A stretch of 43,424 bases of DNA from Tepidimonas aquatica (GTDB lineage Bacteria; Pseudomonadota; Gammaproteobacteria; Burkholderiales; Burkholderiaceae_C): the NCBI RefSeq assembly GCF_007556585.1, contig NZ_VJNA01000022.1, positions 1 through 43,424 of the forward strand. The letters are read 5' to 3'. Every line of letters begins with the position of its first letter. Within the stretch, counting starts at the first letter, position 1. Positions 257 to 16,384 of this stretch are shown piece after piece. Under the pieces are notes generated by a model, which was not told where the DNA came from, did not search any database, and saw nothing but the letters and a program-made list of their open reading frames with translations. The position numbers and the translations under genes were made by a program.

Positions 257-1096
257 ATGAAGTTGGAGAAGGACCGAGACGTTCTGAGTCTCAAGGGAGT
301 TTCCGTCCGCTACGGTGACTCGACCGTGGCCTTGCACCCGACGAGTCTGGATGTGAAGCAGGGAGAGTTTTTGGTGCTTCTCGGCGCCTCGGGCGCAGGG
401 AAGTCCACCTTGTTACGAAGCATCAATGGACTGGTGCTGCCCACAAAAGGCGAGGTATCGATACCTGGCCTGGCAGGTGGGGTAGTCAACGCAAAGACGC
501 TGAGAGAGCACCGCAAGCGCTGTGGGATGGTTTTCCAGCAGCATCATCTGATTGGACGTCAGTCGGTCCTCAGGAATGTTCTGATGGGAAAGCTCGGTGA
601 CAGGGGTGCATTCGCTTCGCTATGGCCGTGGAGCAAGAAGGACAAGCTGGAGGCGCTCACAGTGATTGAGCGTGTCGGGCTGCTCGAAAAGGCGCTCTCC
701 CGGGCTGATGCCTTGTCTGGGGGGCAGCAGCAGCGCGTAGGCATAGCTAGGGCGCTAATACAGAAGCCACGAATCCTGCTGGCCGATGAGCCTGTTGCCA
801 GCCTGGACCCGGCAACCGCACATAGCGTGCTCACCTTGTTGCATGAGATCTGCAAAAAGGACCACCTCACCGCAATCGTGAGTCTTCACCAGGTGGAGCT
901 CGCGCGCTCGTTTGCAGACCGAATCATTGGGCTCCGCCAGGGAGCTGTTGTATTCGAGGGTAGGGCAGAGCAGCTGAGTCCTGATGTTGTGCGGAACCTC
1001 TATGCAAAGCAGTCCAACGCTTCCAACACGAGTGCGTCCACTGATAGCCCCCGAACTCTTCAATCCAGTCAAACCAAGGAGCTCTTGCCATGCTGA
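257..1096 (+). CDS. ptxA: phosphite/phosphonate ABC transporter ATP-binding protein
   Basis: This is the ATPase that would power import of phosphite across the inner membrane together with the two following gene products. At 279 residues it has the usual length of the PhnC/PtxA family. Visible motifs are Walker A GASGAGKST (43-51), the ABC signature LSGGQQQR (153-160) and Walker B ILLADEP (173-179), followed by the D-loop SLD and the switch histidine in SLHQ. An AAGG ribosome site lies just upstream of the ATG. It overlaps the binding-protein gene by 7 bases, which points to translational coupling. Sequence alone places it in the PhnC group; the phosphite rather than phosphonate assignment rests on the ptxD gene at the end of the operon and on the absence of any C-P lyase gene here. 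Confidence 0.9.
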   Translation: MKLEKDRDVLSLKGVSVRYGDSTVALHPTSLDVKQGEFLVLLGASGAGKSTLLRSINGLVLPTKGEVSIPGLAGGVVNAKTLREHRKRCGMVFQQHHLIGRQSVLRNVLMGKLGDRGAFASLWPWSKKDKLEALTVIERVGLLEKALSRADALSGGQQQRVGIARALIQKPRILLADEPVASLDPATAHSVLTLLHEICKKDHLTAIVSLHQVELARSFADRIIGLRQGAVVFEGRAEQLSPDVVRNLYAKQSNASNTSASTDSPRTLQSSQTKELLPC

Positions 1097-1968
1097 ATCG
1101 CCGTAACTTCTTTCTTGTTGTCAGCGCAGCTTCTTTTGCTGCACTCCTTCCTCTGTGGGCTCATGCGCAGGGAAAGGATCCATCAAAGCTTCGTGTCGCC
1201 CTTCTTCCAGATGAGAACGCTGCCAGCGTCATCCAGAACGCGCAGCCTCTTAAGCGCTATCTTGAACAGCAGCTCAAGAAGGATGTTGAGATTGTGGTGA
1301 CTACCGATTACTCCTCGATGATCGAGGCAATGCGGTTCGGTCGGATTGAGGTAGCGTACTTTGGACCGTTCTCGTACGTTTTGGCCAAATCTAAGGCGCC
1401 CGGGATTGAGCCCTTTGCGGTGGGCGTTGAACGTGGGTCGCCCACATACCAGTCGGTCTTCATCGCAACGGCCGGAGGGCCGGTGAAAACGCTTGAAGAC
1501 GTGCGCGGCAAGCCCTTCGGATTTGGCGACCAGGCGTCCACATCAAGCCACCTTGTACCACGTGCACACCTGCTCAAGAAGTACAAGCTTGATGGTGAGA
1601 AGGACTATCGGCCAGTTCACCTTGGGGCACATGACGCGGTCGCACGTGCGGTGCAGTCGGGTCAGATTCCAGCCGGGGCTCTGTCCAAGCCGATTCTGGA
1701 CAACCTCATCGCTCGAGGAAGCATTGATGCCACGAAGATTGTTCAGCTTGACCTTTCTGCTCCCATTCCAAACTATCCGATCGTCATGCAGGGGGACCTC
1801 AAGCCTGAGCTCAAAGCTGCCATCCGCTCTTCCTTTCTGGACATGAAGGATGCTGAGGTGCTCAAGGCGTTTCGTGTCCAGGCGTTTGCCCCCACTGATG
1901 ACGCTGCATATGACGTCATTAGGGATACCGCAACCATCCTGAAGCTTGATTTGGGCCGTATGCAATGA
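1090..1968 (+). CDS. ptxB: phosphite-binding periplasmic protein of ABC transporter
   Basis: This is a 292-residue PhnD/PtxB-type substrate-binding protein. The N-terminus (NRR, a hydrophobic stretch, then AHAQG) is a cleavable export signal with likely cleavage after residue 26 or so. The mature part shows family landmarks: LRVALLPDENAA near 34-45, TDYSSMIEAM, VAYFGPFSYVLA, and GDQASTSSHLVPRAHL around 147-162, the segment that contacts the oxyanion in PhnD-like proteins. It would capture phosphite in the periplasm and hand it to PtxC. The start overlaps ptxA and the end overlaps ptxC by 4 bases (ATGA), so the three transporter genes form one transcript. Binding specificity (phosphite, hypophosphite or phosphonate) cannot be read from the sequence with certainty. 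Confidence 0.88.
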   Translation: MLNRRNFFLVVSAASFAALLPLWAHAQGKDPSKLRVALLPDENAASVIQNAQPLKRYLEQQLKKDVEIVVTTDYSSMIEAMRFGRIEVAYFGPFSYVLAKSKAPGIEPFAVGVERGSPTYQSVFIATAGGPVKTLEDVRGKPFGFGDQASTSSHLVPRAHLLKKYKLDGEKDYRPVHLGAHDAVARAVQSGQIPAGALSKPILDNLIARGSIDATKIVQLDLSAPIPNYPIVMQGDLKPELKAAIRSSFLDMKDAEVLKAFRVQAFAPTDDAAYDVIRDTATILKLDLGRMQ

Positions 1969-2765
1969 CCTCGGCTGCATTCGAGAACATCATCAGTCGC
2001 GACAAGCGGGAGCAGTTCATTGGACTGCTCAATACAGCGTTCGTCCTTCTGGTTTGCCTTGTAGCCCTGTACGTCACGGGGTTCTTCGATGCACAGCGGT
2101 TCATCGAAGGCGCCCCGGCTGTCAAGCAGCTCTTATCTGAGATGGTCCCTCCCAACTTCGACCGCTGGGAGCACTGGGTCATCCCGCTGAGGGACACCTT
2201 GGCGATGTCGATTGCCGGCACAGCACTGACTATCGTGCTTTCACTTCCGCTGGCGCTCCTGGCGGCTCCAAACACCACCCCCAATCCTTTGGTGGGAAGA
2301 GTGGCCAGAGTCATCCTGGCGGCATTCCGGTCCGTGCCAGAAATCATTCTTGGCATTCTGTTCGTGGCAGCCGTAGGGTTTGGTGCTCTACCTGGGGTGC
2401 TCGCACTGGCGTTGCATTCCACGGGAATGGTCGCAAAGTTTTACGCGGAAGCCATTGAGCACGTGGATCCGAAGCCACTTGAAGCAGCTGCTGCGGTAGG
2501 CGCAAGCCGCTTTCAGGTCATCACCCATGCTGTGTTACCGCAGGTTTTGCCCCAGTTGGCGGACATCACCATCTACCGATGGGAATATCACTTTCGCGCA
2601 TCGGCAGTGATGGGCATCGTGGGTGCGGGCGGCATTGGCTTCGAACTCATGGCAGCTCTGCGCCTGACCAAGTACGACGAGGTCTCCGCCATTTTGCTGT
2701 TCATCCTCATATGCGTGCTCGTGGTCGACGGCATTGGGTCGGCGCTTCGCAAACATCTGAAATAG
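1965..2765 (+). CDS. ptxC: phosphite ABC transporter permease
   Basis: This is the inner-membrane permease of the phosphite importer, PhnE/PtxC family, 266 residues with about six predicted membrane segments. The first is at roughly 28-48 (LLVCLVALYVTGF) and the last near the C-terminus (AILLFILICVLVVDGIG). The cytoplasmic coupling loop typical of binding-protein-dependent permeases is seen as EAAAAVGASRFQVITHAVLPQ, in the middle third, and is followed by the conserved GIVGAGGIGFEL segment. It starts within the end of ptxB (ATGA) and ends 17 bases before ptxD, with a GAGAGGAAGG ribosome site in the gap. Confidence 0.9.
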   Translation: MTSAAFENIISRDKREQFIGLLNTAFVLLVCLVALYVTGFFDAQRFIEGAPAVKQLLSEMVPPNFDRWEHWVIPLRDTLAMSIAGTALTIVLSLPLALLAAPNTTPNPLVGRVARVILAAFRSVPEIILGILFVAAVGFGALPGVLALALHSTGMVAKFYAEAIEHVDPKPLEAAAAVGASRFQVITHAVLPQVLPQLADITIYRWEYHFRASAVMGIVGAGGIGFELMAALRLTKYDEVSAILLFILICVLVVDGIGSALRKHLK

Positions 2766-2782
2766 AAAGAGAGAGGAAGGTA

Positions 2783-3763
2783 ATGATGCCGAAAATTGTG
2801 GTGACGCAGCCCATCCATGAAGAGGTACTGGCGCGTCTTATGCAGGTTGGTGAAGTGGTGATGAATCCCGGTCCTGAGCCGTGGAGCGAGGCCGAGCTCC
2901 ACCGTCATCTGAAGGATGCCGACGCAATGATGGCTTTCATGTCTGACCGGGTAGATCAGCGAACCCTGTTGCACGCTCCCAGGCTCAAGACCATCGCTTG
3001 CGCCCTGAAGGGGTATGACAACTTTGACCTGAGGGCTTGCGCACAAGCCGGGGTGACCGTCACCTTTGTTCCTGACCTCCTCACAGAGCCCACAGCCGAG
3101 CTGGCCATCGGATTGGCTATTGCTGCTGGCAGGAACGTGCTTCAGGGTGACGCCGCTACAAGAGCAGGCTACTCTGGGTGGAGGCCAGTTCTATACGGAA
3201 CCGGGCTTCATGGGTCGGTGGCCAGCGTGATCGGTCTCGGAAAAGTTGGGCAGGCCATATTGGCGCGACTCGCGGGCTTTGGCTGCGCGCGGCTGCTTGG
3301 TGTAGACCCAAGTGTGCGTCTAGATCAGGTCGAACTGGTCACGCTCGATGAGGCTTTCAGCACATCGGACTATGTGTTCCTGGCAGTGCCTCTTGTTAGC
3401 GATACGCGCCACCTGGTTGACTCCAGGGTGCTTCAACTATCGAAAAAGGGCCAGATCCTTGTAAACGTGGGTAGGGGGTCTGTGGTCGACGAAAGGGCGG
3501 TTGTCGATGCCTTGGCTAATGAGCAACTTGGCGCGTACGCCGCTGACGTCTATGAGATGGAAGATTGGCTACTTCCAGACAGACCTCGCGAAATTCATCC
3601 GGGATTGATCAACAACCCCAGAACAGTACTCACTCCCCACATCGGCTCGGCTGTGAGACGCGTACGGTTCGAAATTGAAATGCGGGCTGCTGAGAACCTA
3701 GTCCGCTCACTCAGGGGCGAGAGTTTGAGTGATGTTGCTGTCGAGGCCAGCGCGGCAGCATAG
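2783..3763 (+). CDS. ptxD: phosphite dehydrogenase (NAD-dependent)
   Basis: This enzyme oxidises phosphite to phosphate with reduction of NAD+, which lets the cell use phosphite as a phosphorus source. It is 326 residues long, close to the 336 of the Pseudomonas stutzeri enzyme, and belongs to the D-2-hydroxyacid dehydrogenase superfamily. Key residues are in place: M53 in AFMSDRVD, K76 in CALKG, the Rossmann GLGKVG (151-156), D175 at the NAD-preferring position, R231 in GRGS, E260 in YEMEDW and H286 in TPHIGSAVR. The PtxD-specific words FVPDLL, YGTGL, ADV-EMEDW and HIGSAV distinguish it from generic hydroxyacid dehydrogenases. I chose the first of two adjacent ATG codons; the second, at 2786, is equally possible. 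A longer in-frame extension upstream would overlap ptxC and is unlikely. Confidence 0.92.
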   Translation: MMPKIVVTQPIHEEVLARLMQVGEVVMNPGPEPWSEAELHRHLKDADAMMAFMSDRVDQRTLLHAPRLKTIACALKGYDNFDLRACAQAGVTVTFVPDLLTEPTAELAIGLAIAAGRNVLQGDAATRAGYSGWRPVLYGTGLHGSVASVIGLGKVGQAILARLAGFGCARLLGVDPSVRLDQVELVTLDEAFSTSDYVFLAVPLVSDTRHLVDSRVLQLSKKGQILVNVGRGSVVDERAVVDALANEQLGAYAADVYEMEDWLLPDRPREIHPGLINNPRTVLTPHIGSAVRRVRFEIEMRAAENLVRSLRGESLSDVAVEASAAA

Positions 3764-6378: not shown

Positions 6379-9300
6379 TCACGACCACGCCAGCGGCGCC
6401 TCGCCCGCGCTGAGCAGCCCGAGCAAGATCAATGCGGTGGTCAGCGTGTCGGGCCGGGCGTTGCGGCCCGCGCTCCACTCCAGCCCCAGCCAGCGCGCAA
6501 AGGCACCGGCGCGGCCCGCATCCTTGACCGCGAGGCCGACGCGCGGCAGCCGCTGCAGCACTTGGCGCAGCGCGGGCTCGGGCACGGCCCCGTGCACCCA
6601 GGGCGGCAAGTCGGTGCTGCCATCGGCGCGGCGCAGCACCACGCGCAGCCCATCGTCGTGCAGGCCCAGCCCCACCAGCAGCCGAACATAGGTCTGCAGG
6701 GCGCTTGCTTGCTCCGCCCCCCAGAAAGCGACGTCGCGCCGGCGCGGAGTGGTGCGCAGCAGATGAATGCGCAAGGCGGGCAGCGCCAGAGCGCGGATGT
6801 CGGCATTACGCGGCCAGCGCCGCTGCCACTGCTGCAGCCAAGCCGGCGCGCGCAGGCTCGGCAGCGCGAGGTAGGGGCCGTGCGGCCCGTCGCGCACCCA
6901 AGCGCGGCGCACGCCGGTGGGCCAGCGGAAGGCAGGATCGTCGTCACGTCTGAGGCAGTGCGCCAGTTCGGCGGCGCGCTGCAGCAGTGCGTGGGCCTGC
7001 GGCTCGCTCAGCTCCAAAGCGGGCAGGTGCGCGCGCACGCGATCCACGCAAGCGACGGCATCGCCCTGGGTCGCCTGCAACTGGCCGAGCACGGCGTAGG
7101 CGCCGGGCAAGGGCCAGTGCGCGGGCACGGCGGCAGCAGCCGACCCGATCGATGCGGGTGCGGCCGCCACACTGCCGGCGGCCTCGGTCGCAGCGGGGGC
7201 GCTGGTGACAGCGCACGCCCGCAGCGCCCGCTGCGCCACGCCGTCGCGGTCGCCGAGCTGCGCCAAGCGCTCGCACTCGCGCACCGCCAGCGCCCAGGTG
7301 ACGATGGCCTGGGCGTGGATGTAGTGCTCGAGCGACACCAGCGGCGAGGTGTGTCCGAGCAGCCGCGCCACGGCGAAGGCCGCTTGGCGCGCGCTGCCCG
7401 ATGGTCCCCCGAGCAAGGCGCGGTGCAGCTCGGCGCCGCGGCGCAGCAGGGCTTGCGTGTCGGGGTCGCCAGCGAAGACATCGATGATGCGCGGCAGCTC
7501 CACGGCGCGCAAGGCCAGGTAGGTCCAGGTGGCGAAGGCGTGGCGCAAGTGGTGGATGTGCGCGCCGGCAAGAGCGTCGGCCAGCGCCTCGATGATTCGC
7601 TCGGCGGTGCGCTCGGCCGAGGCGCGGGTGCGGCCGAGGTCGAGGTCGAACAGCGGCACTTGCGCCCGAGCGGGTGCGAACGCAGCGCGGGGATCGGCGC
7701 CAATCTGGGCCCAGCGCTGGTGCACCCAGGCCAGCAAGCGCTGGCGCTCGGCGGGCAGCAGCAGCGCGCCAGCGGGGATGATGCGCTGCGCATGCGCGGT
7801 CTTGAGCCGCCGCTGGGCGGTGGGGCGCACGACGATCGTCAGGTCCGGCTCGGGAGAGATGTCGAGCAGCCGCAGGCCCAGGATCTCGGCGCGGCGCATG
7901 CCGGTGCGAAACGCCAGCACCGCGCTGAGCCAGGCCATCTCCCACAACGCCGGCGGACTCTGCGGGTCGCGCTGCAGCAGCGCTTGACGCTGCAGGGTCT
8001 GCAGCGCCCGCATCAAGACGCCGGCCGGCAGCGGCCGCGCATCGACGCCGTCGGGCACGCGCTCGCGCGCTCGGCTGCGGCCGGCGACGGTGCGCTCGAT
8101 ACTGCGGCGCAGCCCCGCCCAGGCAAGGCGCAGCGTGCGCTGGCGCCGTGCGCTGGCCGACGCCAGCAGCAGCTGCTCGGCGCTGTCGAGCTCCTCGTGC
8201 GACCACTGGGTGGGGTCGGGCAGCGGCGGCTCATCGCCGCCGTCTGGCTCGGCGCCGGCGTCGGCTGCTTCGGCGCTGCCCAGCTGGCCGAGCACCGCCA
8301 CCCATGCCGGCAGCAGGGTGTGCACCTGGTGCGCGATGCGCCGTTGCACCGACGGGCTTTGCTGGGCGCGCCGCACCGCCAGCGCCGCCAGCCAGCGCAG
8401 CAGCACCGCTTGGGTGTCGGGCAGCGCGGTGCCTGCGGCCTGCAGCCGCTGCTGCCACGCCGACTCTTCGGTCGGCCAGGGGCCGTCGGCAGCGGCGATG
8501 GTGCACAGGCCGTCCAGCCACGGGTACAGCAGCGCGGCGTCCGCCGCCCAAGGCTGGGCCTCCTCGGCGGTGGCCTCGTCCTCCTCGTCGTCGGCAGGCG
8601 CGATGAGCCGTGCGGCCGCGCGCGGCTGCTCGTCAGCCCCCAGCGACGCGCTCAATTGCTGCCACAGCCGCGGCTCGATATCGTGGGTGGGGTAGTGTCC
8701 GCGCATGAGCTGCACGTCCAGCGCCGTGCCCCAGCGCAGCCACAGGACGCTGGCGCCTTCGATGAGGTCGTCGAGGTCGCGCGGCGCGTGGGCACTGCCC
8801 AGCAGACGGCGCCACTGCGCCGGCAGCGACGACGGCGCGACGATGTCACCACCCGGGCGGTGCTCGAGCAGCCAGGCGCTGACCGGATCGAACAGCCAGC
8901 GCTGCAGTCGCGCGCGCTGCGCGCCGCGCGCGGGGTGCTCGATGTCGAGGTAGGGCACGCCCAAGCCGGTGCGCGGCAGCGCCGCGTTCGCGCACAGGCA
9001 CGCGCGCAGCACCTGCAGGGCGCGCCGCTGAAGCAAGCCGCCGAGCAGGGTCGCGCTGAGCAGCATCGCCGCCAGCCACCGCGGGGCGCTCGAGACCGAT
9101 GCGGGCCGGCGCAAGGCCTCGAGCAAGGCAGCACGCCAGCGCTCGGCGCGCTGCAGCCGCTGCAGCGCCTGCCCGGCGAAGGGGCTCTCGGGTGGGTGCA
9201 CGGCGGCCAGCAGCAGCGTTGGCGCCGGCGGCTCGACGACGGCGGCGCGCGCGGCCGCGCGCAGCGCCCGCACGAGCTGGTAGACCCAGCGCAGCCACTG

Positions 9301-9576
9301 CGCGGCGCGCTGCAGCCCCGCGTGGTGGCGCGCACGCGCCGACGGCGCTGCCGCGTCGGGCTGATTCAGACAGTGTTGCACCAGCGCCTCGCACAGCGCG
9401 CTGGCGCTGCTGGCGTCGGCCATCGGGCCGACGCCCTCGCACAACCACTGCGCATGGGGATTGTCGGCGTGCTCGCGCAGCACGGCGCGCAGCGCGGCCA
9501 GCGACGCGGTGGCCTGCGCGCTTTGACCGTGCGCCAGGCGCGCCCACAGGGCCTCGATGTCGGCCACGGGTTTCAT
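6379..9576 (-). CDS. giant tyrosine recombinase (1065 aa), last gene of the island module
   Basis: A 1065-residue protein with a tyrosine-recombinase catalytic domain in its central to C-terminal part. I see the box I arginine R561 in FRTGMRRAEILGLR, a likely beta-hairpin lysine in RLKTAHAQRIIP, H675 and R678 in HHLRHAFATW, H742 in LGHTSPL and the nucleophile Y752 in SLEHYIH. The gap between R678 and H742 is 64 residues, against 23 in the ordinary integrase of the same operon, so there is an insertion of about 40 residues. The N-terminal 500 residues and the 313 residues after Y752 match nothing I recognise. It is Ala/Leu/Arg rich with a very GC-rich codon choice. The ATG at 9576 overlaps the stop of the preceding gene (ATGA), which decides the start. 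Expected role: DNA breakage and joining for the element, perhaps with its neighbour. Confidence 0.8.
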   Translation of the reverse strand: MKPVADIEALWARLAHGQSAQATASLAALRAVLREHADNPHAQWLCEGVGPMADASSASALCEALVQHCLNQPDAAAPSARARHHAGLQRAAQWLRWVYQLVRALRAAARAAVVEPPAPTLLLAAVHPPESPFAGQALQRLQRAERWRAALLEALRRPASVSSAPRWLAAMLLSATLLGGLLQRRALQVLRACLCANAALPRTGLGVPYLDIEHPARGAQRARLQRWLFDPVSAWLLEHRPGGDIVAPSSLPAQWRRLLGSAHAPRDLDDLIEGASVLWLRWGTALDVQLMRGHYPTHDIEPRLWQQLSASLGADEQPRAAARLIAPADDEEDEATAEEAQPWAADAALLYPWLDGLCTIAAADGPWPTEESAWQQRLQAAGTALPDTQAVLLRWLAALAVRRAQQSPSVQRRIAHQVHTLLPAWVAVLGQLGSAEAADAGAEPDGGDEPPLPDPTQWSHEELDSAEQLLLASASARRQRTLRLAWAGLRRSIERTVAGRSRARERVPDGVDARPLPAGVLMRALQTLQRQALLQRDPQSPPALWEMAWLSAVLAFRTGMRRAEILGLRLLDISPEPDLTIVVRPTAQRRLKTAHAQRIIPAGALLLPAERQRLLAWVHQRWAQIGADPRAAFAPARAQVPLFDLDLGRTRASAERTAERIIEALADALAGAHIHHLRHAFATWTYLALRAVELPRIIDVFAGDPDTQALLRRGAELHRALLGGPSGSARQAAFAVARLLGHTSPLVSLEHYIHAQAIVTWALAVRECERLAQLGDRDGVAQRALRACAVTSAPAATEAAGSVAAAPASIGSAAAAVPAHWPLPGAYAVLGQLQATQGDAVACVDRVRAHLPALELSEPQAHALLQRAAELAHCLRRDDDPAFRWPTGVRRAWVRDGPHGPYLALPSLRAPAWLQQWQRRWPRNADIRALALPALRIHLLRTTPRRRDVAFWGAEQASALQTYVRLLVGLGLHDDGLRVVLRRADGSTDLPPWVHGAVPEPALRQVLQRLPRVGLAVKDAGRAGAFARWLGLEWSAGRNARPDTLTTALILLGLLSAGEAPLAWS

Positions 9577-12359
9577 GCCGGTGAGCGGGTGGGTGCGGCC
9601 AGGGCACTGACCAGGGGCACGATGCCCAGGGACTGGAGGTCGTGCTCGATGGCGACGCAGAGATCGGCGAGGGCGCCGCGCCAGTCGAAGGTGCTCAGCG
9701 GCCCCCAGGGCCACTCGCCCTGACGCGCGTGGCCGAGGTAGGCGTCGATCACCTCGGCGCGCATGCCAGCACCGAGCAGCCGCGAGCGCAGCCGCGCACG
9801 CGCGAAGTTGGGCGGCACCAGATCGTCGGCACCGGGCGCGAGCGCGGCTGAGGATGCGCTCGGCGCGGTCGCGGCGGCCGAGACGGTGTGCAGGCGGCGC
9901 GCCAGCTGCTGCCCCATCCAGTAGGCGCCGACACTGCTGAGGGCGGGCTGTTGGGCATCGCCGTCGAAGACGGCCAGCCCGTTGGCCTCATCCAGCGGCC
10001 ACAGCACGCCGTACTCGGCCAGGCGCTGCTGCAGCCCCTGCAGGTGGCGGCGGTGCTGGGCGAAGTGCGCCGTCAGCGCCGCCGGCAGCCACACCACGCG
10101 CGTGCGGTCGTGCCAGGCTGGGGCCTTGTCGCTGAGCGCGCACAGTTGCGAGCCGGCCGCGTCGCTCATCTGCCGCCAGGCCTGCCACGGCCCGAGCAGG
10201 TCGCGCTGCGCGCGCATGCCGGTGCACAGCAGCTGCAGCAGTACGGTGTAGAACACCCAGGTCTCGTGGTACTCGCGCAGCTGCGCCCAGCTGCGCACCT
10301 TGGTCGCCAGGCGCCGCTGGGTGTCGCGCACGAGCGCCTGCAGCCACGCTTCTTGCAGCACGAAGCGCGCCCCCGCGCGCCAGCTGGGCCAGGCGGGCGC
10401 TGCCTCTGACTCTGCCTTTGCCGCTGCGGGTGTGGGTGGCAGCACGGCGCTTGGGTGCGGTGCGTTTGCTGGCTGCGGCGGCCCCAGGGCGGCCAGCCAC
10501 GGCGCCAGCCGTGCGCAGCCCTGCGTCCAGGCCTGGGCGATGTGCGCCAGCGTGTGCTGGGTGTAGTGCAGGCGGGGCTCGCCGGCGTGCTGCGTCTGCG
10601 CCAGCGTCAGCCACACGCAGCTGGCGTCACCCGTGACGTGCAGCAGGATCGCTGGCATCGTCTGCGCGATGCGCTGCGGCGTGATGCGCGGCTCACCGAT
10701 GGCCTGCAGCAGCGCCTGCGCTTGGGCGTCGAGCGTGCTCGGGTGGGCGCTGAACACCAGCTTGGCGTGGCTGTGCGGCCGCGCGCGCTCGGGCGCGCCG
10801 CTGGCGCGCAGCACGAGCGCCCACCAGTGGGTGGCGCCGGGCAGAAACACCGCTGCGGCCACCGGCTCGCCCCAGGCCTGCACCGCCTCGGGCAGCGGGA
10901 CGCGGTAGCGTGGCTGCAGCGCCGGCAGCACGCATCCGAGCGGCTCGGGCGGCGCCGCCTCGTGCCCCGGCGGGCCCCAGCACAGCAGGGTGGGCGCATC
11001 GATGAGCGCCTGGCGCAGGACCGCAACCAGGGCGTCTTCGGCGCTGGGCGCGTGCACCCAACGCCAGCGCAGCGTGCGCGCTTGCTCCAGGCTGCGGCCC
11101 AGCAGCAGCGCGACCAGTACGAGCGCGCCGGCCTGCGCGCGCGCACCACCGGCGGCGCCGCGCTGCTGGCCAGCGTCGAGCGCCGCGCGCACGGCCCGCC
11201 CCAGACACTGCAGCTCCCACGGTGTGAGCACGCGCCAGTCCCAGCCGAAGCGCTGTGCGGCGCTTTGCCGCGTCGGCTGCCCCCAGCGGCCGGCAAACAA
11301 GCGTGCGCCGCAGGCGCGCGCATCGAGCAGCTCGTACAGCGGCTCGGCCGTCTCCAGCGGCGACGCCCCCAGCGCTTGCTCCTGGCCGATGACGTCGGCG
11401 AGCTCGCGCTCGTCGCGCGGCAGGTCGTCGTACCACCACAGCGCCTCCTCGTCTTCGTCTTGCGGTGGCAGCAGCTCCGGGGCTTGACGCCGCAGCGCGG
11501 GCCCGATCAAGCCGACCCAGCCGTGCACGGGCTGGCGCGGGCCGCGACCGCCGCCGCGGCGGCGGCGCGCGCGCGGGCGCACCCGACCCGCGCAGCGCTG
11601 GGCCCAGGCGATGAGGTAGCGCAGATAGAGCGCCCAACGGTGGCGCTGCTGCTCAGACGCGGGCGCGGCGCTGTGCGCAGCCGCCAGCGCCAGCAGGGCC
11701 TCACGCCGGGCCTGGGCCAGTGTCTGCAAGAAGGTGGCAGTGTCCTGCGCCACCGGCAAGGCTGCGAGCAAGGGCTCGGCACGGGCCAGGCTGCACTCGC
11801 GCACCACCAGCGCCGCGTTGGCCAGCGTCGCGCTCGGCAGGGCGTCGAGCGCCGCGGCCGACGAGTGGCGATCGCGCAGCAGCGCCAAGCTGCCCAGCAG
11901 CAGGTGGCCTTGCAGGCGCGCCAGGCTCTGCGCCGCCGCGCTGCCCGGCCGCTCGTGTTCGTGCTCGTGTTCGTTCCACAGCGCCGAGACCAGTGATGCG
12001 GCGCGGATGCCATGCCGCATGAGCGGGTGGCCGCGTGCACCGGCAGCGCCGCGCAGCAGCGGCGCCAGCAGCGGGTGTTGCCGCAGGTCGGCGGCGTGGG
12101 CTCGGGTCCAATCGGCGGCCCAGCGTGCCGCCGCCAGCCACTGGCGCAGGCGCTCGGGCGGCAGCGCGGGCAGCGCGCCGAAGTCACCGCGCTGGGCCTG
12201 CTGCAGGATCGCGGCCATGCACGCGAAGATGCGGGCATGGCCGATGAGTTCGGGGTGCGCGCGCACGTCGTGCAGCAGCGCGCGCAGCGCCGCAGCGTCG
12301 GCGCCGTCGGCGACAGCGGCGTCGATGAGCGCGCGCCAAGCCGGCGGTTCATGGCTCAT
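9573..12359 (-). CDS. giant recombinase-like protein (928 aa), probably catalytically dead
   Basis: A 928-residue protein of a family I cannot name. Its C-terminal third looks like a divergent tyrosine recombinase: LLCTGMRAQRDLLG carries R716 in the place of the box I arginine, and DAYLGHARQGEWPWG carries H877 in the place of the third conserved residue. The HxxR box is reduced to an arginine-rich segment (854-860) with no histidine, and where the nucleophilic tyrosine should be there is only STFDW (889-893) and no Tyr to the end. The first 600 residues are unrecognised and include an acidic DEDEEALWWYDD stretch. The ATG at 12359 overlaps the upstream gene by 11 bases and its stop overlaps the next start by 4, so it is coupled on both sides. 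Likely a structural or DNA-binding partner of the 1065-residue recombinase. Confidence 0.7.
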   Translation of the reverse strand: MSHEPPAWRALIDAAVADGADAAALRALLHDVRAHPELIGHARIFACMAAILQQAQRGDFGALPALPPERLRQWLAAARWAADWTRAHAADLRQHPLLAPLLRGAAGARGHPLMRHGIRAASLVSALWNEHEHEHERPGSAAAQSLARLQGHLLLGSLALLRDRHSSAAALDALPSATLANAALVVRECSLARAEPLLAALPVAQDTATFLQTLAQARREALLALAAAHSAAPASEQQRHRWALYLRYLIAWAQRCAGRVRPRARRRRGGGRGPRQPVHGWVGLIGPALRRQAPELLPPQDEDEEALWWYDDLPRDERELADVIGQEQALGASPLETAEPLYELLDARACGARLFAGRWGQPTRQSAAQRFGWDWRVLTPWELQCLGRAVRAALDAGQQRGAAGGARAQAGALVLVALLLGRSLEQARTLRWRWVHAPSAEDALVAVLRQALIDAPTLLCWGPPGHEAAPPEPLGCVLPALQPRYRVPLPEAVQAWGEPVAAAVFLPGATHWWALVLRASGAPERARPHSHAKLVFSAHPSTLDAQAQALLQAIGEPRITPQRIAQTMPAILLHVTGDASCVWLTLAQTQHAGEPRLHYTQHTLAHIAQAWTQGCARLAPWLAALGPPQPANAPHPSAVLPPTPAAAKAESEAAPAWPSWRAGARFVLQEAWLQALVRDTQRRLATKVRSWAQLREYHETWVFYTVLLQLLCTGMRAQRDLLGPWQAWRQMSDAAGSQLCALSDKAPAWHDRTRVVWLPAALTAHFAQHRRHLQGLQQRLAEYGVLWPLDEANGLAVFDGDAQQPALSSVGAYWMGQQLARRLHTVSAAATAPSASSAALAPGADDLVPPNFARARLRSRLLGAGMRAEVIDAYLGHARQGEWPWGPLSTFDWRGALADLCVAIEHDLQSLGIVPLVSALAAPTRSPA

Positions 12360-12978
12360 GGCGCTCACTCCGCAGGGCTTTGGCCAGCGCCGCGGTGGTG
12401 CAGCCCAGCGCCTGTGCCAGGGTTTGGAGTTGGGCATCACGCAGCATCGGCAGCGGCGCGCTCGGCAGCCGCTCGTAGCGCTCGCGCAGCGCGTTGAGGC
12501 CCGCAGCCCAGCGGTGCAGCGCCCGCTGCCCCACGGCGTCCAGCGCCGCCAGCAAGGCACGCACCGCGGGTGCCTGGGATCGGGGGCAGCTCAGCACCAG
12601 CACCACGACCTCGGCGTCGCGGCCCAGACATTGCCACAGCATGGCCCAGGTGCGCGCTCCGGCCAGCAGCCGCCACTGGCCGCCGCGGGTGCGCCGCACG
12701 ACGATGGGGCTCAGCAGCGCCAGCAGCTGCACCGCCGGCAACGTCCAGGCGTTCCAGTCGACGATCGCCGCGCCCGGCTCGCCCTGCAGGTCCGCCTCGG
12801 CGTCGGCCACGATGGCCGCCAGTGGCACCCGTGCCAGCTGCAGCTGCACCGCCCACGGGTGGTCAGCCGCGATGATCCACGGCAGCGGTGCGCCGCACGA
12901 TGCGGTATCCGCTGACGCGGCAGGGGCGGGCGCGGCGGGAGTGGTTGGGCAGGCGGCGGTGGCGGGGCGACGGGACAT
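12349..12978 (-). CDS. ParB-like DNA-binding protein
   Basis: A 209-residue protein. After a low-complexity Pro/Ala head (1-35), residues about 48-125 resemble the ParB/Srx fold: VPLAAIVADAEADL, then SPIVVRRTRGGQWRLLAGARTWAML (split here as 90-114), the place where ParB proteins have the PIxVR...Y.LVAGERR pattern. The usual GERR box is GARTW here, so CTP or nuclease chemistry is doubtful. Residues 180-205 (AQLQTLAQALGCTTAALAKA) could form a helix-turn-helix. It may recognise a site on the element for partition or for guiding the recombinases. It lies 86 bases after the HD gene and overlaps the 928-residue gene by 11 bases. Confidence 0.6.
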   Translation of the reverse strand: MSRRPATAACPTTPAAPAPAASADTASCGAPLPWIIAADHPWAVQLQLARVPLAAIVADAEADLQGEPGAAIVDWNAWTLPAVQLLALLSPIVVRRTRGGQWRLLAGARTWAMLWQCLGRDAEVVVLVLSCPRSQAPAVRALLAALDAVGQRALHRWAAGLNALRERYERLPSAPLPMLRDAQLQTLAQALGCTTAALAKALRSERHEP

Positions 12979-13064
12979 GGCGGCGCGGTGCAAGCGGAAG
13001 GTCGCACGCGCGCATGCTACCCAAAACGGCGCAGCGCGTGGGCGCGCCCTGCCCGCCCGCGCGC

Positions 13065-14054
13065 TCAGGTCGCCGTCGCAGACGCCCCCAGCCCCCAGTA
13101 GACCCGCGTGCCCAGCGCCGGCACGTAGCGTCCTGCCGGCGCGCCGCGGGCGCGACACTGCTCGATCAGGTCGATTTGGCCGGAAAGGGCATCGACGCTG
13201 CCCAGCACCAGCGCCTCGGGAGTGCGCGGTCGGCGCAGCCCGACCCAGTCCGGGGCCCAGCAGGCATGGATGGCGTGGTGCACCGCCATCTCGCGCAGCG
13301 CCTGCGGCCGCGATGCGAGGGGCAGCTCGGCCAGCGCTTCGGTCATCCACTGCAGGGTGCTCAGGCGGTGCCCGATCAGCTCGCCGCGCAGCGTCAGCCG
13401 CCAGCGCCGCTGCGCCGCATCCCACCGGTATTCGTCGGCCTTGCCCAGGTCGTGGAGCAAGGCGGCCATGATCAGCACCTCGGCGTCGACGCTGGGGTCG
13501 CCGGCGGCCAGCCGCAGCGCGCGCTGCGCACAGTCCAGGCTGTGCTGCAGCAGACCGTGCGCGCGCGCGTGGTGGTGCTGCAGCGAGGCGCGCGCCTGGA
13601 CAAAGGCCCACAGGCGCTGCGGGTGGCGCCAAAACAGGGCGTTGAACCAGGCGCGCATCGGCTCGCTCAGGCGCTGCCACAGGAGCGCAAAGGCGGCGCG
13701 GGTGTGCGCCGCCTGCGGGCCCAGCCACGCATCGGGCACGGTCTGCAGCAGATCGACGTCGGCCGCCAGCGCCGCGGGCCACACGCGCAGCGCCTCGATG
13801 GGCGCGGTAGCGGCGAGGTCCGCTTCGACGATGGCCGCGCGCGCCAGCCGTCCCGGCGCGAGGGTGTCAGCGCGCAGCGGCTGGCTCCAGTGCAGGGTGC
13901 GCGTGCCCTGCCCGGGCACCCAGACCTCGGCGCGCAGCCGGCGCCGGCCGCCATCGGGCACGCCGCGCGGGCGCAACAGCCGCACCAGTACGTGGCGCGC
14001 CACGCCCGGGCACGCCGTCGCCGGCATCAGCGCCGGCGGTTCATACGCGCTCAT
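13065..14054 (-). CDS. HD-domain phosphohydrolase, YhaM-like
   Basis: A 329-residue protein with a C-terminal HD domain that follows the layout of the YhaM 3'-5' exonuclease group: H171 in LLQHSLDCA, H201-D202 in ALLHDLGKADEY, then GELIGHR with H229, VHHAIHA with H259-H260, and PEALVLGSVDALSGQ with D288. These would bind two metal ions. Residues 1-130 are different from the OB-fold of YhaM and are not recognised. The ATG at 14054 overlaps the integrase stop by 14 bases. In mobile elements HD domains also sit at the N-terminus of MobH relaxases, but no relaxase part is present. A role as a DNA or RNA end-processing nuclease for the element is an inference. Confidence 0.7.
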   Translation of the reverse strand: MSAYEPPALMPATACPGVARHVLVRLLRPRGVPDGGRRRLRAEVWVPGQGTRTLHWSQPLRADTLAPGRLARAAIVEADLAATAPIEALRVWPAALAADVDLLQTVPDAWLGPQAAHTRAAFALLWQRLSEPMRAWFNALFWRHPQRLWAFVQARASLQHHHARAHGLLQHSLDCAQRALRLAAGDPSVDAEVLIMAALLHDLGKADEYRWDAAQRRWRLTLRGELIGHRLSTLQWMTEALAELPLASRPQALREMAVHHAIHACWAPDWVGLRRPRTPEALVLGSVDALSGQIDLIEQCRARGAPAGRYVPALGTRVYWGLGASATAT

Positions 14055-15342
14055 GGCTGCCCTCCCAGGCACCATGGTCGACATCGGTGGCGACGGCGGC
14101 GGCACCCGCGCCGACCACGCCCACTGGCCCGAGGTGCTGGCACAGCAACCGCTCGAAGGCCGAGCCATCGCGCCGTGTGAGGTTGGGCACGAAGCGCGAG
14201 TAGATGCGAAACAGCATCTCGGTGCTGCTGTGCCCGAGCTGGCGCGCGATCCACTCGGGCGACTCGCCGGCGGCCAGCCACAGCGTGGCGGCGGTGTGGC
14301 GCATCTGGTAGGGCCGCCGCGGCGCCAAATCGAGGTGGCGCAGCAGCGGGTACCACACCCGCGTCATGAAGTTCTTGTTGTCGATGGGGCGCCCAGCGCG
14401 GTTGGCAAACACGTACAGCGCGTCTTCGCGGCTGGCGCGGCGCTGCGCGGCCAGCGCCTCGTAGACCACTTGGTTCATCTGGATGTCGCGCATGGAGCCG
14501 TCGGTCTTGAGCTCGTCGTCTTCGCCCAGCACGAAGGATTCGCGCACCAGGATGAGGCGACGCTCGAAGTCGACGTGGTGCCATTTGAGCCCGTGCACTT
14601 CGCCCGTGCGCATGCCGGTGAAGAAGCGCACCACGAAGTAGTTGCGCCAGTCCGGGCGCACCGCCCGCAAGATGCGCTGCACCTCCTCCAGTGTGAAGGG
14701 CATGACGTCGCTGCGCTTGATCTTGAGCGGCTTGATGTTGCGAAAGGCCGAGGTAAACTCGAATCGGTCGGCGGCTTCGTTGAGGATCTGGCGCAGCGGT
14801 TTCATGATCGCGTTGATGCGTCGGTGCGACAAGGTGCCCTGGCGGCCTCGGGCGGGTACTTTGGCGAGTGTTGCCCGAAACGCCAGGACATCGGCCTTGG
14901 TGATGCTGCCGACCGCCCGATCTCCGAAGTGCGGCAGCAGGTATCGATCCAGCACGCCGCGCTGTGTGATGACGTAGCTGCGCCGCCACGCGACGCTGGC
15001 CTCGGCGAACCACTGCTCGGCAAAGTCGGCAAAGCGCGGTGTTGCCGACGCTGCGGCGGCCGACGCGGCAGGGGCTGCCGCCGGCACGAGCTCACTGGCT
15101 GGCACTGGTGGCAACAGCTCCTTGGACGCGGCCGATGCCGCCGGCGCCGGCCGCCCGAAGATGCGCTCGTAGTCGAAGGTGCCAGCGGCGATCTCGGCCT
15201 CGATGCGGTCCAGAACCTTTTGCAGACGGCGGCGGTTGGCGGGGGTGTCGGGCAGTGCGGTGTATTCCCGATAGCGCCGACCTCCCACGCGAAAGTCCAT
15301 GAATAGCGTGCCCTTGGTGGGCAAGACGCGGATACTAGCCAT
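14041..15342 (-). CDS. phage-type site-specific integrase (tyrosine recombinase)
   Basis: A 433-residue integrase with the three usual parts. The arm-binding head reads MASIRVLPTKGTLFMDFRVG..RYREYTALPDTPANR, typical of the DUF3596 group. The core-binding domain starts near FADFAEQWFAEAS after an Ala/Pro linker. In the catalytic domain R245 sits in TGMRTGEVHGL, R348 in YQMRHTAATL, H371 in QLGHSS and the nucleophile Y381 in FRIYSRF. The first position of the HxxR box is Tyr (Y345), normal for this group. I start at 15342, which overlaps the upstream gene by 8 bases; an ATG at 15381 would extend it by 13 residues without family support. It is the best candidate for the enzyme that inserted the island at the tRNA-Arg gene about 0.9 kb away. 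Confidence 0.92.
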   Translation of the reverse strand: MASIRVLPTKGTLFMDFRVGGRRYREYTALPDTPANRRRLQKVLDRIEAEIAAGTFDYERIFGRPAPAASAASKELLPPVPASELVPAAAPAASAAAASATPRFADFAEQWFAEASVAWRRSYVITQRGVLDRYLLPHFGDRAVGSITKADVLAFRATLAKVPARGRQGTLSHRRINAIMKPLRQILNEAADRFEFTSAFRNIKPLKIKRSDVMPFTLEEVQRILRAVRPDWRNYFVVRFFTGMRTGEVHGLKWHHVDFERRLILVRESFVLGEDDELKTDGSMRDIQMNQVVYEALAAQRRASREDALYVFANRAGRPIDNKNFMTRVWYPLLRHLDLAPRRPYQMRHTAATLWLAAGESPEWIARQLGHSSTEMLFRIYSRFVPNLTRRDGSAFERLLCQHLGPVGVVGAGAAAVATDVDHGAWEGSHERV

Positions 15343-15571
15343 GGATGGCACCTCCCCCCAGCAGCGGAATCGCGAAGGCATCGTTCTGTGACGCCTTGGC
15401 CATGTCGGCCTCGATGTGCTCCCAGATGTAGAGCGTCTTGCGCCCGCCGAAAGGTCGGATGTAGTGCCGCCCCTCCAGCAAGACGCTGTCTTTGAGCCGG
15501 TTGCGTATCGTGCGCGGGTCGTACTTGATCCGCCGGGCCAGCTCGTCAGTCGTGAGATAGGTACAACTCAT
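15335..15571 (-). CDS. excisionase-like small DNA-binding protein
   Basis: A 78-residue protein, first gene of the leftward island operon. The start MSCTYLTTDELARRIKYDPRTIRNRL is a winged helix-turn-helix of the excisionase/MerR-like type, and the following LLEGRHYIRPFGGRKTLYIWEHIEADM is the wing and C-terminal helix seen in recombination directionality factors. It would bend DNA at the attachment site and steer the adjacent integrase. Its end overlaps the integrase start by 8 bases, so expression is coupled. It is transcribed away from the XRE regulator across a shared 157-base control region. Confidence 0.72.
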   Translation of the reverse strand: MSCTYLTTDELARRIKYDPRTIRNRLKDSVLLEGRHYIRPFGGRKTLYIWEHIEADMAKASQNDAFAIPLLGGGAIHG

Positions 15572-15607
15572 CGTTCAAGCCTCCTTTGACGAAACAGGGT
15601 TCATGCA

Positions 15608-15702
15608 CAGGATAGCCAAACGACATCGTGAATGATGTTTTGCTATCCTGGATCGCATTATAGCATGGATTTTGGCGTTTGCAACAGCGTTGTGCTATCC
15701 TG
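15608..15702. promoter_or_regulatory. three CAGGATAGC/GCTATCCTG boxes, probable operator array
   Basis: The nonamer GCTATCCTG occurs in forward orientation at 15642-15650 and 15694-15702 and in reverse orientation (CAGGATAGC) at 15608-15616, all inside the 157-base gap between two divergent genes. The spacing between starts is 34 and 52 bases. The third copy overlaps a plausible -10 box (TATCCT, 15696-15701) with TTGGCG (15672-15677) 18 bases upstream, reading toward the XRE gene. The arrangement fits repression of both promoters by that XRE protein, like a phage immunity switch. Binding is inferred, not shown. Confidence 0.55.
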
Positions 15703-15728
15703 CATGAAACTTTTCTACAGAGACAAAC

Positions 15729-15950
15729 ATGATCCGCTGCCATCTCTCGCGCTTGATGGGCGAGCGCAAGCTCAAGATCAGTGATGTCGCACGTCAGACG
15801 GGCCTAAACCGAAACACCGTCACGTTGCTGTACTACGAGCGAGCGACCCGCGTTGATCTGGATGCCATCGATCGCCTGTGCACCCTGTTCAACGTGTCCG
15901 TGGGGGATCTGTTCGAGCACGTGCCCGGGAACGCCAGTCAAGCCGATTGA
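15729..15950 (+). CDS. XRE/Cro-like transcriptional regulator
   Basis: A 73-residue protein made of little more than a helix-turn-helix domain: LMGERKLKISDVARQTGLNR followed by NTVTLLYYERATRVDLDAIDRLCTLFNVSVGDLFEHV. It has the size and pattern of Cro/CI-type regulators of the YozG kind. It lies divergent from the excisionase-integrase operon, with repeated boxes between them, so it probably controls both its own gene and the operon. There is no repressor oligomerisation or autoproteolysis domain, so induction by RecA is not expected. Downstream, 15951-16213 shows no convincing gene. Confidence 0.82.
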   Translation: MIRCHLSRLMGERKLKISDVARQTGLNRNTVTLLYYERATRVDLDAIDRLCTLFNVSVGDLFEHVPGNASQAD

Positions 15951-16213: not shown

Positions 16214-16289
16214 TGGCGCGGCTGGCGGGGATCGAACCCACGACCTTCGGCTTCGGAGGCCGACACTCTATCCACTGAGCTACAGCCGC
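16214..16289 (-). tRNA. tRNA-Arg (anticodon CCG)
   Basis: A complete 76-base tRNA on the minus strand. The 7-base acceptor stem pairs GCGGCTG (5' end at 16289) with CAGCCGC, followed by discriminator G and an encoded CCA (16216-16214). The D arm, the anticodon stem TCGGC/GCCGA around loop CTCCGAA (anticodon CCG), and the GGTTCGATCC T-arm are all present. It sits at the edge of the integrase-bearing island, and its 5' half is duplicated upstream. Its native promoter probably lies beyond that duplicate. Confidence 0.95.
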
Positions 16290-16290: not shown

Positions 16291-16342
16291 TTGGGCACTG
16301 AGACCTGTCGTCAAATTTTCGTGCGTTGCCTGGACGACCACA

Positions 16343-16384
16343 GGCTTCGGAGGCCGACACTCTATCCACTGAGCTACAGCCGCG
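16343..16384 (-). repeat. 42-bp direct repeat, copy 2 (orphan 5' half tRNA-Arg, att scar)
   Basis: An exact copy of the tRNA-Arg 5' half without the 3' half, so it cannot fold as a tRNA. The two copies start 94 bases apart, with 52 bases between them. A TAGAAT -10-like box (16401-16396, minus strand) lies just upstream of this orphan copy, which suggests that the orphan keeps the original promoter-proximal position and the intact gene was rebuilt downstream by an integration or excision event. Confidence 0.75.

Follow-up and report, generated by a model that had tools for sequence, protein, structure and literature searches.

Two giant recombinase-fold proteins in a recurrent module of tRNA-bounded islands and plasmids

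At one end of a genomic island in Tepidimonas aquatica, an ordinary integrase is followed by genes for two giant proteins that resemble tyrosine recombinases, raising the question of what a second set of such proteins does in an element that already carries an integrase. The stretch analysed, referred to as the window, is the whole 43,424-nucleotide contig NZ_VJNA01000022.1, i.e. contig 15 of a 2.67 Mb assembly in 97 contigs (GCF_007556585.1). The module comprises six leftward genes, encoding an excisionase-like protein (Xis), the integrase (Int), an HD-domain protein, a ParB/Noc-like protein and the giants REC1 and REC2, behind a divergent gene for an XRE-type regulator (Table 1). The gene order, lengths, overlaps (8, 14, 11 and 4 bases) and single 86-base gap proposed in an earlier, sequence-only reading were reproduced exactly on recomputation, and all six leftward genes are ATG-started open reading frames whose sole stop is terminal. 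The module is real, recurrent and widespread, and is new as a named entity among multi-recombinase mobile elements, while the partnership of its genes is loose. The regulator, Xis and Int, together with the HD protein, probably form the island's integration and excision block, and REC1 and REC2, here with the ParB/Noc-like protein, would constitute a second, separable recombination module of islands and plasmids.

The giant pair and its companion proteins

REC2 possesses the R-K-H-R-H-Y set of a tyrosine recombinase, present as R561, K592, H675, R678, H742 and Y752, which is identical in all 16 aligned relatives of alignment A5 and invariant in the 13 rows of alignment A8, with exceptions in a wider 17-row set (A4) at R561 (16/17), H675 (14/17) and H742 (16/17). 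Matches to Pfam Phage_integrase (E = 2.1e-6, residues 530-683) and to PHROG integrase profiles (best E = 5.9e-8) are confined to the recombinase core. An AlphaFold2 model of modest confidence (pLDDT 69.6, pTM 0.50) matched XerH, XerA and Cre in Foldseek (best E = 3.6e-4), with tyrosine recombinases occupying ranks 1-42.

Whereas REC2 keeps the full catalytic set, REC1 lacks the tyrosine, so that the initial assignment of both giants as recombinase-like proteins stood for the former and, for the latter, not as a complete enzyme. Across the 19 aligned rows of REC1, R716, K745 and R854 are retained throughout and GH in 17, HxxR reads NxxR (N for H in 16/19), and the tyrosine position is not conserved, being Y in six rows and L in the window protein; the combination of nucleophilic tyrosine and HxxR that marks an active tyrosine recombinase is therefore missing. 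The window REC1 had no match in Pfam, NCBIfam, PHROG or PADLOC, and Foldseek with its model returned nothing significant (best 3nkh, E = 0.66, probability 0.85). The 19-row profile (A3), searched against 177,635 PDB sequences, placed XerD chains first (best E = 3.8e-6). In some lineages the two giants are fused, which supports a fixed REC1-REC2 pairing, and all six fused rows placed in a tree, from which L048, L049 and the plasmid fusions were left out, formed one clade (support 100/99). Purifying selection acts on the three genes of the giant module, with ratios of nonsynonymous to synonymous substitution of 0.15-0.22 in one Arsukibacterium pair. At one locus (L039, 12206-14608), a PrimPol-like protein of 800 aa adjoins a fused pair and an Int/HD block.

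The 209-aa protein encoded upstream of REC1 did not match ParB_N significantly on its own (E = 0.17). A 26-row profile (A7) of its positional equivalents matched Noc (E = 2.7e-9), then six ParB/Spo0J chains, and also one genuine plasmid ParB, placing the family in the ParB/Noc superfamily by profile. The HD protein matched Pfam HD (E = 2e-7) and a YhaM PDB chain (E = 1e-9) and stayed below the cut-offs for YhaM (E = 1.7e-9), MobH (E = 2.9e-6; 26.4 bits against 200) and TraI_2 (E = 3.8e-4; 19.9 bits against 23.9), i.e. it does not classify as a MOBH relaxase; a relative at locus L044 passed the TraI_2 cut-off with 38.1 bits. Int matched Arm-DNA-bind_2 (E = 8.5e-20) and Phage_integrase (E = 1.1e-17), and members of its family sit in tRNA-bounded islands; in other islands, copies of Xis with 60-77% identity immediately precede the integrase.

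Occurrence on plasmids, in genomes and in bounded islands

That the pair works without tRNA integration, and thus that its task is separable from that of the integrase as had been supposed, is argued most strongly by its presence on plasmids, where the Int family is nearly absent (at E <= 1e-60, 3 of 72,556 plasmid records, including a chromosome-sized Aeromonas record of 4.9 Mb). These copies surfaced only with more distant relatives as queries: the window REC1 matched none on plasmids, and the window REC2 gave three weak plasmid records and none on phages. Profiles confirmed REC1 and REC2, or their fusion, in all six plasmid loci viewed, and a ParB-like protein in one. On V. cyclitrophicus pLMG21359 the E values were 3.3e-16 for the ParB-like protein, 6.8e-52 for REC1 and 1.7e-69 for REC2, Sphingobium p-A-Sy carries the pair with a shortened REC1, and Acinetobacter plasmids carry it in both split and fused form. 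The fused form is carried by 42 plasmid records and a relative of the A. pittii REC2 by 247, of which 211 reach 80% coverage; all are from Acinetobacter. These records do not represent independent isolates, the two sets overlap partly, and partner genes were checked only in the six viewed loci. Existing annotations of these genes on the viewed plasmids read site-specific integrase, tyrosine-type recombinase/integrase, integrase or hypothetical protein only. At the Acinetobacter plasmid loci L196, L197, L198 and L199, REC1 or the fusion is preceded by a gene for a protein of 145-225 aa that was not recognised as ParB-like and may be a different helper.

Among chromosomal relatives, Tibeticola sediminis DSM 101684 has all seven genes in the same order, adjoining a tRNA-Arg(ccg), with identities of 77% for Xis, 76% for Int, 65% for the regulator, 52% for the HD protein, 35% for REC2, 32% for REC1 and 28% for the ParB-like protein, so the expectation that the six leftward genes would occur together elsewhere was confirmed. 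A first scan of genome contigs with REC2 alone found no relative, another scan gave 12 loci with REC2 relatives, including records of Ferrovum, Comamonadaceae, Arsukibacterium, Rheinheimera, Geobacteraceae and Acidobacteriaceae, and a search of IMG/VR found none; REC2 was matched in 0 of the 10 same-genus genomes compared. In Ferrovum myxofaciens (L109, 11616-21077), Hma-type defence genes lie beside the trio.

REC1 was detected in 14 of 399 genomes of the order sample and in 29 of 398 of the phylum sample, 18 of the latter being kept for their long frames and 11 dropped because the sole match was a short frame of 137-438 aa, the size of XerC/D. The Int family, counted at E <= 1e-80, was found in 19 genomes of each sample. 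Int and REC1 occurred together in 14 phylum genomes against 0.86 expected (p = 1.5e-18) and in 12 order genomes against 0.67 expected (p = 1.5e-16), p values that ignore kinship and overstate independence among related genomes; they became 4e-16 for the phylum without G000 and G322 and 1e-12 for the order when G063 was also left out. The two genes shared a contig in all 14 phylum genomes, of which G322, G639 and G818 are single-contig genomes and little informative, the genes there lying as much as about 73 kb apart, and in 8 of 12 order genomes, the other four being drafts with the genes on separate contigs. Int and REC2 distances were correlated (Mantel r = 0.68, n = 16, p = 2e-4), which host descent could equally explain.

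The window itself contains one end of a tRNA-Arg genomic island, of which both ends were identified while the middle is split over contigs. The right attachment site, attR, is an exact 55-bp repeat that includes the 3' part of the tRNA gene and lies on contig 45 (G000:C45, around 113520-113544), 593 bp from the contig end, and a search of the same genome for the repeat core, allowing three mismatches, returned attL and attR only. In the same-genus genomes G002 and G010, the right flank of the window, the tRNA gene and the contig-45 sequence lie on a single contig that lacks the first 3.5 kb of contig 45 beside attR, which bounds the island. A direct repeat of the tRNA 3' end at both ends is the hallmark of a tRNA-integrated island and agrees with the sequence-only reading that an ordinary integrase acts at the tRNA gene. 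G+C content is 74-76% in the module (7-14 kb) against 55-59% in the cargo (1-5 kb) and 64-71% on the chromosomal side (16-25 kb).

Nine islands bounded by paired repeats of a tRNA 3' end, that of the window included, hold Int and the giant pair, Int being degraded in one (G686); they are the loci looked at further where repeats were found and not a random sample. Paired repeats were not found in the stretches fetched at G183, G219 and others, nor at the G322 islands. In five of the nine (G532, G621, G686, G559 and G318), the pair reads into the island from a first gene that starts 154-238 bp in from attR, with only about 200 bp between attR and REC1 in G621 and G318; because the two ends meet in the circle, the pair would there adjoin attP. 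In the eight islands other than that of the window, the Int block and the pair are ordered, oriented or spaced differently, and the HD protein was often not recognised by BLAST. The single-direction order is thus restricted, among the nine, to the window island, and the six genes do not form the one obligate unit that had been suggested. No empty site for the G686 pair was found by flank DNA, the genomes compared being too distant. On one contig (L085/L086, G577:C4 597575-643564), two giant pairs about 33 kb apart flank an Int of the same family and read outwards. A T-arm motif was found upstream of 3 of 38 pairs with the first pattern and, after the pattern had been widened in response to misses, upstream of 5 of 38 against a background of 5.1% (p = 0.04, weak and post hoc), and downstream of 2 of 38.

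Table 1. Features of the window, and the bounded islands compared with it
Feature	Position or size	Strand	Description
REC2	6379..9576	-	1065-aa tyrosine recombinase-like, long helical N-terminal part
REC1	9573..12359	-	928-aa degenerate tyrosine-recombinase-fold protein
ParB/Noc-like protein	12349..12978	-	209 aa, degenerate ParB N-terminal motif
HD-domain protein	13065..14054	-	329 aa, YhaM-like, partial MobH/TraI_2 similarity
Integrase (Int)	14041..15342	-	433 aa, Arm-DNA-bind_2 type, tRNA-targeting family
Excisionase-like protein (Xis)	15335..15571	-	78 aa, weak HTH_17 (E = 0.068)
XRE/Cro-type regulator	15729..15950	+	73 aa, divergent; HTH_26 (E = 5.3e-21)
tRNA-Arg(ccg)	16214..16289	-	3' part = attL
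Cargo operon	257..3763	+	ABC ATPase, phosphonate-type binding protein, permease, D-2-hydroxyacid dehydrogenase; Pfam ABC_tran, Phosphonate-bd, BPD_transp_1, 2-Hacid_dh
Window island			tRNA-Arg; Int block and pair both at tRNA end
G472 island	28 kb		tRNA-Met; Int block and pair both at tRNA end
G639 island	41 kb		tRNA-Arg; Int block and pair both internal
G818 island	59 kb		tRNA-Arg; Int block and pair both internal
G532 island	51 kb		tRNA-Val; pair at attR, Int at tRNA end
G621 island	33 kb		tRNA-His; pair at attR, Int at tRNA end; ParB-like gene absent
G686 island	66 kb		tRNA-Gly; pair at attR, degraded Int at tRNA end
G559 island	61 kb		tRNA-Arg; pair at attR, Int beside pair
G318 island	39 kb		tRNA-Pro; pair at attR, Int at tRNA end; ParB-like gene absent

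The cargo operon resembles the ptxABCD arrangement for phosphite uptake and oxidation, and the other cargo in the window comprises a Mutator-family (IS256-like) transposase together with an integrase-core fragment. At 16334-16384, 94 bp from the tRNA-Arg gene, lies a second copy of its 5' half, which is probably older than the island, since similar copies occur in the same-genus genomes G009 and G008 and in Tibeticola. In another genome of the genus (L129, G007:C76, 597-1206), a 610-bp segment at the same tRNA shares 97.9% identity with the start of the island, with no match in the other 596 bp up to the contig end, possibly indicative of a second related island.

A possible role for the pair and the alternatives to it

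REC2 most likely cuts and rejoins DNA, and REC1, in which the arginine and lysine positions are kept and the tyrosine is lost, may act as a non-cutting partner in a mixed complex that the ParB-like protein, where present, would help to place. With one subunit active and the other dead, exchange would tend to be limited to a single pair of strands. The substrate would most likely be the element's own circular form, whether excised island or plasmid, and the pair would resolve or process this form, thereby letting the element be kept or passed on, as opposed to serving entry into a tRNA gene. Service to the circular state is the simplest reading because the pair is common to plasmids and islands and often lies at the attP edge. 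We therefore tentatively favour, at somewhat short of an even chance, the reading that the REC2/REC1 pair, with the ParB-like protein where present, resolves or processes the circular form of its element rather than carrying out tRNA integration.

Several observations weigh against it. Islands G318 and G621 lack the ParB-like gene, and a copy was recognised at just one of the six plasmid loci, so this gene is not essential in general; the pair is internal in G639 and G818, and two pairs flank an Int in G577, none of which fits an end position. No cis-site was found by an inverted-repeat script applied to five end regions only, and the REC1 and REC2 profiles gave no alignment with hhalign (probability 0.5). 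Plasmid pACI-b25a has Rep and ParAB, and since plasmids may hold other maintenance genes the pair may be a passenger there. A more specific version, in which a widespread plasmid-and-island stability system employs a giant recombinase heteromer with a dead subunit, often with a ParB/Noc-like helper, for a half (single-strand) exchange on the circle, distinct from XerCD, Cre-type resolvases, strand-biased circularizing integrative elements (SE) and GInt, is unlikely.

The best-surviving alternative, which we regard as rather unlikely, is a transposition or integration machine like those of SE and GInt, in which several recombinases, one of them dead, and a small helper would perform single-strand copy-out, in islands possibly together with Int. 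As described in the available text of PMC10214605, PMC9345347 and PMC5385486, both systems have a degenerate partner, cotranscribed genes at one end and a small fourth protein, and SE IntB has a very long N-terminus; here REC1 is dead, REC2 is long, the pair lies beside attR in five of nine islands, and phyla are intermingled in the REC2 tree, which fits transfer. However, the ends that were found are tRNA-3' repeats fitting Int, separate ends for the pair were not seen (plasmids were not searched for them), and those texts mention no ParB/Noc-like helper in connection with Srap or GinD.

It is more doubtful that the pair is a tyrosine-recombinase-like relaxase module, as MpsA/MpsB of SGI1, TcpM and MobK are, nicking an origin of transfer near attR with possible help from the HD protein. 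Recombinase-type relaxases are known (PMC9299015 and PMC8152469, available text), the authors of the SE work raised the same idea for IntB in the portions available, the HD protein has partial MobH/TraI_2 similarity with one relative over the TraI_2 cut-off, and 189 of the 247 records with REC2 relatives and 38 of the 42 with fusions are typed as mobilizable. That typing rests, however, on other features, e.g. the MOBP and MOBQ relaxases on pIC001A, and the three known members are described in the same two papers, as far as their available text goes, without N-terminal DNA-binding domains, unlike REC2 with its long N-terminus. A cargo system that does not act on the element, such as one that defends against foreign mobile DNA, is improbable: the neighbours include an Hma system (Ferrovum), a type III restriction enzyme (L107) and an RtcR-type CARF regulator (G639 island), from a check of nine hand-picked proteins of which two had no match, but ordinary cargo would not be expected beside attR in five of nine islands or in company with one integrase family, and no PADLOC model matches REC1 or REC2.

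Irrespective of whether processing of the circular form proves to be the task of the pair, a second recombinase module without a name marks a family of tRNA islands and links islands to plasmids, and two giant subunits of which one is active and the other dead, joined into a single protein in some lineages, offer a clean case for the study of half-active recombinase pairs.

Relation to known multi-recombinase systems

Among the matches listed in searches of open-access literature there was no description of the REC1/REC2 module, which is not proof of its absence from print. The comparison with SE, GInt, the Tn554/RIT/BIM group and MpsA/MpsB, TcpM and MobK draws on published descriptions. Gamma-mobile-trio (GMT) elements are named for a trio of genes that includes a recombinase. 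Membership of this group was rejected, which leaves standing the sequence-only reading of a new module: no window protein had a Gmt match at E <= 1 in a scan of the whole library, where GmtX and GmtZ did not appear either, the GmtY model (NF040693), which spans 441 positions, exceeded its cut-off in none of nine pair-bearing genomes (best match inside a REC2 in G818, E = 0.17), and the recomb_assoc and ribK_Meth models gave no match. The likeness lies in a mobile element with defence cargo, as described in the available text of PMC12715929; in the available parts of PMC12259885 and PMC11888443, GMT appears only in the reference list.

The Tn554, RIT and BIM systems similarly have neighbouring recombinase genes with short overlaps, and some Tn554-like proteins reach 611-828 aa, but the available text of PMC3414803 mentions no HD or ParB partners and gives the BIM partner as an SMC-domain protein. 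MpsA/MpsB, TcpM and MobK share the recombinase fold on a mobile island and on plasmids, and MpsA has a partner protein, whereas the accessible parts of PMC9299015 and PMC8152469 describe them without arm- and core-binding domains. GInt (GinABCD) resembles the module in having two active recombinases, one degenerate recombinase and a small protein at an island end, and differs in that the word tRNA is absent from the main text of its paper, as available. SE, consisting of IntA, Tfp, IntB and Srap, resemble the module in their operon of four genes at one end, in a recombinase-fold protein that is dead (Tfp), in an IntB with a very long N-terminus and in a small helper. However, according to the available descriptions, the SE core takes 5.5-6.4 kb for all four genes and SE are reported in Gammaproteobacteria only, whereas here REC1 and REC2 alone occupy about 6 kb, relatives also occur in metagenome-assembled genomes of Acidobacteriaceae and Geobacteraceae, the helper is ParB/Noc-like and the islands end in tRNA repeats.

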